Shown here: positions 52,097 through 55,000 of the stretch, piece after piece
Layout of the letters: each line of letters opens with the position of its first letter
Numbering within the stretch: the first letter of the stretch is position 1
NCBI RefSeq assembly: GCF_030704535.1
Contig: NC_081815.1
Location: forward strand, 3,177,001-3,241,000
From: Vitis vinifera
Lineage: Eukaryota > Streptophyta > Magnoliopsida > Vitales > Vitaceae
Length of the DNA: 64,000 nt
Reading direction: 5' to 3'
Notes under the pieces: model-generated
Told to the model about the DNA's origin: nothing
Databases searched by the model: none
The model's input: the letters and a program-made list of their open reading frames with translations, nothing else
Made by a program: the position numbers and the translations under genes

Positions 52097-55000
52097 ATGG
52101 CTCAAGCCGCGAGGCTCATCCTCCGAATGCAAAAGGAGCTCAAGCTTCTTCTCACCGACCCACCGCCGGGCGCCTCCTTCCCTCAACTCTCCGGCGACTC
52201 CGACATCTGCTCTTCTTCTTTATCAAGTATTGACGCCCGTAAGTTCTTCATTTCTTCTCTTCTTTTCTGTGTTTCTGTGAAATCTTACTAAATTGTATGA
52301 AAATTTGTGTCTATCAGAGATTGAAGGACCCGAAGAAACTGTATATGCCAAAGGGATCTTTAAAATTAAGATCCATATACCTGAAAGGTGTGATTTTATC
52401 TTGTCTGTTTTTTATCCTTTCCTCTCAGATATTGTGCTCGTGAAACTGTGGGTTGTTTCATGGGGGTGATTTGCAGGTACCCCTTTCAGCCTCCGAGTGT
52501 GACTTTTGCGACGCCCATCTACCATCCCAATATCGACACTGGAGGGCGAATCTGCCTCGACATTCTCAATCTACCTCCTAAAGTGAGTTACTTTGTTGCT
52601 GGAATTGATATCTGAATAGAAAAACTTGGGTGCAATTTGCATTTTAGAACTTAGAGTCTCTAGTTATTGCTTAATTAATTTGCCTTTGACTTAACCCATA
52701 ACCTTGATAGTCTATTTGGAACGAAATTTTCAAGGGAAAGGAATGAGAGGAATTGAGCATTGGATTTGATTTTCTTTCTTTTGTTTGGCAATAAGAAAAT
52801 TTAAATATGAAGATAATCTACACTGACCCCATTTTCCCAGTTATTTTCTACCACAATTCCCTTGGCTCAGAAACAGAATGAAAAAAAAAACCTTTCCTTC
52901 CCAATTTTCCCGTATGATCTCCATTTCAAACTTGGTGAGAAATCATGTGTGCAATTATCAAAAGGTTTGTCTAAAATTCTGGATGGATTCAGGTGTCTGA
53001 AAAATCTTTGCATTTCGTATGAAGCTTCTTTTCCAGAAAGTCTATGCCAACAATTTTATCTTTTTTATGGAGATATATAATTGAGTGAAGTTATTGGACA
53101 GTGTTGCTGGGTGAAGATAAATCTTAGGTCTGTGTGTCATTGACAGCTGCGGACTTCATATCTATAGTCCAGCCATCAATTTCTGCAAGAATATACAGTG
53201 TCATATTATGATTCTTATTGCATCATGTGTTTGTAAAACCCAGTGCTTCAAGATTCTAAAGGGTAGTTCCCATAAGGTTGACATCAGGTCCAAAACTCTT
53301 GCAGCTGCAAAGCAAAGATAGGCCTATACTTTCTACAATTTTCAGTAACAATAATCTTTTGGAATTTTGTTATTTCCATCTTCTGATTTTGATGTGCAAG
53401 ATATGGATTGCTTACATATTTTGTAGGGTCAGTAACAATAATGGGTGAGATGTTGTTGTGAAGTTGTGAAATTCAGTTACAAATTACATTCATCTATTAG
53501 TTCATAACAAGGGTTAGTTTCCAATCCAAGCAGGGTGCGTGGCAACCATCTCTGAACATTTCAACTGTGTTAACAAGCATTGGGTTGTTACTGAGTGAGC
53601 CCAACCCTGATGATGGCCTAATGTGTGAAGCGGTAAGTGGATATGTCTACAAGTACTTAGGGCAGTGATCATGGCTAAAGAAGTCTATCTGATTCATGAT
53701 ATGTTTGGATGAATATGCAGAGCAAGGAATACAAGTATGACCGACAAGCTTTTGACCAGAAGGCACGATCTATGACTGAAAAGTATGCCAAAGCTGGGGC
53801 TAGTGGGAACAGCAGCAACCAAATCATTCAAACAAATACAAATCCAAGCATGGTATTAGCACTTAATTGATCTGGTTCTATTTTGGTGAGCACAATCCTC
53901 ATGAAAAATTTGTATTTTCGTTCTGTAGGTGGACATAAAAGGAATGGACATGGTTCCAAAACATGACATTCATGAGTACACTGGCAGTCATAGCAAGCTA
54001 AGTGGGATTTGCCGGAAGTTGTCATGGGAATTCTCAGACTCAATGCAGAACAAGGAAGTAACTGAGGTACCTAATCAGTGCCTGGAAAACCAGTTGGTAG
54101 TGAAACGACCAAAGAAAGAGCCCAAAGGTGGAGTGCATGACTGCAATCCAAGTCATGAGAAGCTATGCATGAGCAGGCAGAAGTTATCACTGGAATCTAT
54201 GCGTGAAACTAAGAAGAGAGATGGTGGTGATGACAAAGAAAATGAGGTGCCAAATTACAGCTCATCACTCTTGAACTCCCAAAGCCCTTCTGTGGCTTCA
54301 AAATCATTGCCAGTTCCTCCTACTAGCAACCATTATGAGCAACAACCTCAACAGGATCAAGACAATAAACCTATAAATGACTACTTAAGCATTGGTTCAG
54401 GGAAGCCTCACTGGATATGTCGGAAACTATCATTAGAATCTTCAAAAATGTCCAATGTAGATGATAGTAATGACAAGAAAATTTCTGGGTCCCCTCAACT
54501 ATCATCCTCCCAGATTGAATCCAATGTCTCACACAAGGCCTCACCAATTCTCCAGACTGTTAACCATAATGGTTTGCGGATGAATAAGGGCTGTATAGAT
54601 GGGACAGGACATGAATTTACCAACACAAAGCTGAAGAAGCTGTGTTCCTCGGGTAAGAAGCTTTCTCTGGGACTCTCAGGCTCATCAAAGACAGAGGAAA
54701 GTGATAATAAGGAGAATTTGGTGCCAACTCATGAAGTGCCCCTTTCACACCCTAAAGGCCCTTCTATGGATTCATCGAAGTCCTCCCTTATGCCCCAAGC
54801 CGGTGAATGCTATGACTGGAAATCAGAAAGATGTATAATAAATGCCAGCAGTAAGAAGTGCAGAATTGGTCAGAAGGCAATGGAACCTCTGGGTCAATGG
54901 CAAAGGAGCAATGAGAAGCAGCAATCCCTCTCCATACCTCAAATCTATAAGGATGGTGAGAAGCAGCAATCCAATGAAGATGAAGGTGAAGCTGTGGATG

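Follow-up and report, generated by a model that had tools for sequence, protein, structure and literature searches.

Introduction

To our knowledge, the E2 of the plant Fanconi pathway has barely been studied. In Arabidopsis, we take At3g24515 (UBC37, subfamily XVI) to be the orthologue of the grape E2 described here. According to a review, residues Arg60, Phe63, Asn103, Arg6 and Arg9 of human UBE2T face FANCL, and Arg60 acts as a positive selector (PMC5264512). Arabidopsis UBC37 is given as a 45-kDa protein in PMC4641371. A tomato UBC37 is called a K63 enzyme in PMC5561181, so the name may refer to a different gene there.

The activators of the APC/C recognize KEN boxes through their WD40 domain. 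The KEN boxes of securin and of BubR1, itself a KEN-box substrate of APC/C-Cdh1, lie in a DKENxxP context, and a cooperating D-box near the KEN is usual, if not always needed. Among E2s, UBE2C undergoes self-limiting destruction; we know of no UBE2T-type core that serves the APC/C. In PMC8764033, KEN peptides from yeast and human proteins favoured Cdh1 over Cdc20, lone KEN peptides bound weakly (14 and 26 µM) and binding was far better with several degrons together; the authors mention contrary structural evidence for Cdc20. Other papers report that the KEN of cyclin A2 binds Cdc20 (PMC9289945) and that UHRF1, a chromatin protein, is ubiquitylated by APC/C-Cdh1 via its KEN (PMC7758050). The Arabidopsis activators are CCS52 (Cdh1) and CDC20, and KEN-bearing forms of CDC20 are discussed as possible CCS52 substrates (PMC3110789).

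We analyzed a stretch of 64,000 nucleotides of the Vitis vinifera genome (assembly GCF_030704535.1, contig NC_081815.1, positions 3,177,001 to 3,241,000), which we call the window and to which all unprefixed coordinates refer. Like human UBE2T (FANCT) and Arabidopsis UBC37, the E2 encoded there has a UBC core, a catalytic Cys, the Arg that selects FANCL and the RING-facing Phe; its 405-aa tail sets it apart from human UBE2T, a 197-aa chain (PDB 5ngz), and from the 45-kDa Arabidopsis protein. This tail differs from what we found in the literature for UBE2T or UBC37 in carrying fourfold units with KEN boxes. We found no description of it in the literature searched on UBC37, UBE2T and At3g24515, which takes in a minority of subscription papers. 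Nor did we see UBE2T linked to a KEN box in PMC5264512, which contains "KEN box" only in the title of a reference, or in PMC6534075, which names UBE2T only in such a title.

Results

The grape gene encodes a predicted UBE2T-type E2

The E2 gene has six exons, introns that are all GT-AG and a product of 588 aa (Table 1). When we searched the PDB with the core, the top match was human UBE2T (1yh2, E 2e-55), ahead by about 19 orders of magnitude of the top non-UBE2T chain, a UBE2D fusion (E 7.1e-36), which bears out the UBE2T-type identity proposed in the initial annotation. The catalytic Cys is C97, within RICLD. Four of the five FANCL-facing residues are kept (R71, F74, N114 and R10, corresponding to human R60, F63, N103 and R6), and Lys13 replaces Arg9. 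In the genome searched (495.6 Mb, 21 contigs), the next matches to the core by E-value have 43-45% identity, with weaker, shorter ones at 35 to 52%; because the next matches are this distant, we take the E2 to be the single UBE2T of the genome.

The FANCL family (its C-terminal domain, PF11793, at C7:25524444, 3.7e-11) and the FANCD2 family (PF14631 at C12:1875565, 1.1e-26) are both found in this genome. In the RING of grape FANCL, which we aligned by eye to the human sequence, the I-C-Y and [DE]-W positions are kept: the interface Ile, Tyr and Trp are the same and Asp stands instead of Glu340, so that a salt bridge with R71 is still possible. Orthology suggests that the gene is a plant UBE2T (UBC37-type) E2 that would be the partner of the E3 FANCL and act on FANCD2.

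Table 1. Features of the grape E2 gene and of the elements that carry fragments similar to its tail. Positions are those of the window unless a contig is named; residues are those of the 588-aa product.
Feature	Position	Strand	Basis
E2 gene	52097..55146	+	
Exons 1-6	52097-52238, 52318-52387, 52477-52582, 53534-53632, 53721-53852, 53929-55146	+	gene model
Exons 1-5 with introns, UBC core of UBE2T type, residues 1-183	52097..53852	+	gene model, PDB match
Exon 6, 405-aa tail, residues 184-588, including stop	53929..55146	+	open frame
Unit 1, residues 194-248, core RKLSW, decayed box KEVTEVP	53959..54123	+	
KLSW core, unit 1, residues 213-216	54016..54027	+	
Unit 2, residues 249-327, core RQKLSLE, box DKENEVP	54124..54360	+	
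KLSL core, unit 2, residues 268-271	54181..54192	+	
KEN box DKENEVP, unit 2, residues 285-291 (KEN 286-288)	54232..54252	+	
Unit 3, residues 328-404, core RKLSLE, decayed box DKKISGSP	54361..54591	+	
KLSL core, unit 3, residues 349-352	54424..54435	+	
Unit 4, residues 405-472, core KKLSL, box NKENLVP	54592..54795	+	
KLSL core, unit 4, residues 427-430	54658..54669	+	
KEN box NKENLVP, unit 4, residues 443-449 (KEN 444-446)	54706..54726	+	
SUMO-interaction-like motif, 12 residues, residues 553-564, near tail C-terminus	55036..55071	+	strict pattern
L022-L026 elements	contigs 10, 10, 13, 1, 1		

The tail consists largely of four homologous units

Aligning the tail with itself gave a best off-diagonal score of 111, which was reached by 0 of 1000 whole-tail shuffles (maximum 82) and 0 of 1000 window-25 shuffles (maximum 85). 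Between units, the U2-U4 and U2-U3 scores (84 and 74) exceed those of all 2000 shuffles, and unit 1 scores 48 with unit 4, 46 with unit 2 and 41 with unit 3 (reached by 2, 5 and 10 of 2000 shuffles, respectively). The U3-U4 pair, at 36, is not significant (243 of 2000 shuffles reach it). The four-fold repeat that had been noticed in exon 6 is thus recovered as four homologous units with a signal above all 2000 shuffles. The initial annotation had described each unit as a K-L-S core paired with a KEN-like box; both elements are present as described, but the unit is longer than the pair, with units 2-4 spanning 68-79 aa each as we cut them. We rejected a candidate fifth unit from residue 473 onward, since 574 to 1851 of 2000 shuffles matched its scores with units 1-4.

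The layout of a unit is an [HN]-[ED]-[YFC] stretch, K-L-x4-x-K-L-S-L/W in three of the four units, an acidic run, and [DN]-K-E-N-x-V-P in two of the four. When the four units are aligned, all of them share one upstream Lys, K-L-S, the Lys of the box and the Pro of the box, and the only run among these invariant columns is K-L-S. The unit appears to be a tandem duplication of roughly 80 codons, or about 240 nt; the boxes of units 2, 3 and 4 are spaced 240 and 234 nt apart in the DNA.

No Pfam family matched the 405-aa tail up to E = 1. With the tail as a genome query (12 candidates scored), we found its own locus, five unit-1-like fragments and one chance match (E 7.2); with units 2-3 as the query, the matches were the gene (unit 4 reaching no better than E 0.126) and two more at chance level (E 3.4 and 5.3). 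There is no sign that the module is a domain common to other grape proteins, in six-frame searches that use no profile and can miss distant copies. In non-plant collections, no relatives of the tail were found in viral contigs, and none of the core in viral contigs, genome contigs or plasmids. A structure model of the tail has pLDDT below 50 for 366 of 405 residues, at least 70 for 8 of 405, and a mean of 40; since the model was built from a single sequence, this low confidence is no proof of disorder, though it is as expected for a disordered tail. We consider the tail to be probably disordered.

KEN boxes and K-L-S cores recur in the tail

As the initial annotation had it, units 2 and 4 of the gene model have an exact KEN with Pro at +3 after the Asn (286-288 and 444-446), and the boxes of units 1 and 3 are decayed, with no exact KEN. 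The tail has two KEN against 0.19 expected, a count that 304 of 20000 shuffles reach and that is only moderately surprising. The form [DN]KENxxP occurs twice against 0.00125 expected (0 of 20000 shuffles reach 2), but this and the other longer patterns were picked after the sequence was seen. K-L-S starts at residues 206, 213, 268, 349 and 427, five occurrences against 0.46 expected, with one of 20000 shuffles reaching five. Because the units are copies, and both KEN boxes were copied from one, these motif counts are not independent events.

The third and fourth cores had also been said to fit the RxLx-hydrophobic pattern of cyclin docking. They do, but the description was incomplete, because core 1 (R-K-L-S-W) also fits [RK]xLx-hydrophobic. 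The tail has three instances of the pattern where 0.67 are expected (502 of 20000 shuffles have at least three), as would suit a tail that docks cyclins (RxL) and turns the enzyme into a substrate of CDK. This reading is weakened by the ST-P sites, which are at chance (4 against 4.37 expected) and of which none of four has a basic residue at +3 (STPx[KR] = 0). The core of unit 2, moreover, is without a properly placed basic residue, and we regard cyclin docking as very unlikely.

Kinases of the CDPK/SnRK group recognize hydrophobic-x-R-x-x-S, and those of the Aurora/AGC type R-K-x-S. The R-K-L-S core would suit basophilic-kinase sites at least as well as it suits cyclin docking. The element that matters could then be the R/K-x-L-S core, as a basophilic-kinase site, with the KEN-like boxes as an acidic spacer in which KEN arose by chance in two copies. 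The invariant K-L-S run agrees with this, as do the three instances of [RK][RKQ]LS where 0.12 are expected (1 of 5000 shuffles) and the two of I-C-[RK]-x-L-S where 0.00 are (0 of 5000 shuffles; a pattern chosen after the fact). The absence of KEN from two of the four boxes also fits, and the same absence speaks against a role of the boxes as degrons. However, the [DN]KENxVP form is kept in two units despite synonymous change, the Arg lies one place further off in unit 2, and plain [RK]xxS is at chance (9 against 8.41). We judge the kinase-site explanation somewhat unlikely, with a weight similar to that of the degron explanation.

Codon comparisons suggest that the copies are old

The Leu codon of K-L-S is TTG, TTA, CTA and CTT in units 1-4, respectively; as it is different in every unit, the units should be old, with no recent homogenization. 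The KEN codons are AAA GAA AAT in unit 2 and AAG GAG AAT in unit 4. Between units 2 and 4, the motif codons (10) have pS 0.73 and pN 0.09 and the linker codons (47) have pS 0.73 and pN 0.44; between units 2 and 3, the KLSLES codons (6) have pS 0.86 and pN 0.00 and the linker codons (43) have pS 0.67 and pN 0.53. As we chose the motif columns for their likeness, some of their low pN follows from the choice itself, and the contrast between motif and linker is biased. In a blind test, identical columns were no more clustered than among shuffled columns (U2-U4, 23 of 57 columns identical, 5318 of 20000 shuffles; U2-U3, 20 of 49, 2180 of 20000), which counts against the motifs standing out from the linkers. 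Read from the codons, the copies are old and the motif residues have survived.

A second comparison comes from five places in the genome (contig 10 twice, contig 13, contig 1 twice) that hold a fragment 73-82% identical in DNA to the central part of unit 1, matching 53963-54088 wholly or in part. A stop codon lies inside the E2 fragment in three of the five copies. Four of the five have D-G-D-R, four codons absent from the gene (the match of the remaining copy, L014, ends before), and the E-F of the gene reads E-S in four copies and D-S in L014. A 38-aa reading of copy L010 scores 54 against unit 2 (0 of 2000 shuffles) and reaches no significance with units 3 and 4. Because D-G-D-R and E-S or D-S are unit-2-like, unit 1 of the gene may have lost an acidic piece since the split. 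The unit-1 box has no exact KEN in the captured copies. Over 26 codons, the gene and the captured copies differ with pS 0.11-0.31 and pN 0.12-0.15 (pN/pS 0.5 to 1.3), and unit 1 does not look clearly constrained.

These comparisons bear on a further explanation, that the expansion is largely neutral: a disordered tail would have been duplicated in tandem and drifted, and the motifs would be functionless remnants of the founding unit. The closeness of pN to pS in unit 1 against the captured copies is in line with this, as are the unclustered identical columns of the blind test, the lack of KEN in units 1 and 3, and the number of shuffles that match the KEN count alone. In contrast, drift sits poorly with 405 codons of open frame, with a linker in which pN too is below pS (0.44 against 0.73 between units 2 and 4) and with cores that were kept though their Leu codon changed in every unit. 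On the whole, we find a largely neutral expansion unlikely.

A multivalent docking tail as a proposed mechanism

We propose as the most likely mechanism, though tentatively, that the last exon adds a multivalent docking tail to a UBE2T. Tandem duplication of a unit some 240 nt long would have built up this long and probably disordered tail, and with each unit would have come a pair of short linear motifs: one R/K-K-L-S-L core and one [DN]KENxVP box. An APC/C activator of the Cdh1/CCS52 type would dock both intact KEN boxes through its WD40 domain, and the enzyme would thereby be cleared from late mitosis through G1 and in endocycles. The serines of the K-L-S cores, as basophilic-kinase sites, could tune KEN docking or other binding, and a C-terminal SUMO-interaction motif could bring the enzyme to SUMO-modified repair sites. 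This combination of KEN docking to the APC/C, phosphorylated cores and a SUMO motif is one that we put forward as possible.

For the degron part, the motif forms suggest that the KEN boxes are plausible APC/C degrons through which the enzyme's own tail would time its destruction. Like the KEN-box substrates of APC/C-Cdh1 (securin, Hsl1, UHRF1 and BubR1), the grape tail has KEN; as in securin and BubR1, an acidic residue or Asn precedes it and Pro follows at +3, and in grape the stretch around it is probably disordered. Unlike these substrates, the tail has no D-box beside the KEN, its boxes are candidate degrons only, and the bearer is itself a repair E2. We found neither RxxLxxx[NQD] nor RxxLxxxx[NQD] in the tail (0 of each), and bare RxxL occurs three times against 1.11 expected (455 of 5000 shuffles). 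Since there is no D-box, the tail as a degron would rely on KEN repetition or on other docking. Timing by Cdh1/CCS52 is, moreover, a choice on our part, because KEN can also bind Cdc20. As a degron-bearing enzyme, the grape E2 would resemble the APC/C-bound UBE2C and UBE2S in being an E2 tied to the APC/C; unlike UBE2C and UBE2S, it would be linked as a substrate. Taken together, these data partly support the initial annotation of a UBE2T with a repeat tail that bears candidate degrons: the observation was right, and the interpretation is a fair hypothesis.

For the SUMO part, the strict interaction pattern, a hydrophobic core flanked by an acidic/Ser run, occurs once in the tail and in 15 of 20000 tail shuffles, and a loose pattern is found in 1029 of 20000; both patterns were chosen after the sequence was seen. 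Residues 553-564 are a good candidate for a SUMO-interaction motif, which, if it works, would tie a Fanconi E2 to SUMO. A broader proposal is that the tail, with its repeated KEN boxes and phosphorylated cores, acts as a cell-cycle gate on a crosslink-repair E2 through APC/C-CCS52, with the SUMO motif guiding the enzyme to damage, so that the Fanconi pathway, the APC/C and SUMO would be linked in one protein; we think this quite unlikely. Functional KEN boxes would place the timing switch of the Fanconi pathway in the E2 and not in a subunit of the core complex; altering two sites would then free crosslink repair, and perhaps the control of meiotic crossovers as well, from the cell cycle. Even with idle boxes, the tail would cleanly illustrate how motifs arise and decay after duplication.

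Fragments similar to unit 1 lie in dispersed mosaic elements

The elements L022-L026 are dispersed, measure about 10 kb and look like mosaics of captured gene pieces. L022, L024, L025 and L026 are alike at 95-97% over about 7.7 to 10 kb, and L023 is more diverged (86-91% in the main same-strand pieces). Within the 1-kb stretch L022:4300-5300, the piece at 125-395 matches contigs 3 and 1 and the one at 400-531 the E2, with matches to contigs 4, 5, 7, 8, 11, 12 and 14 elsewhere in it. In L024, the frame directly before the E2 fragment holds a PAZ domain (PF02170, 8.7e-16). We infer that the element captured the fragment from the E2 gene and not the reverse. No inverted repeats of at least 40 bases were found within L024 1-10000, and that the elements are Pack-MULEs or Helitrons is a guess. 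In L022, a 147-aa frame (4419-4862, stop to stop) joins the PAZ-like reading to the E2-tail fragment, and the copy at contig 1:15171733 also has a 147-aa open frame.

Upstream of the E2 gene and on the same strand, a tRNA-Leu gene with anticodon AAG lies at 51862-51942, about 155 bases before the E2 start codon. Directly upstream of the tRNA gene, a 62-base unit is present in three tandem copies (51593-51781, 92% matches).
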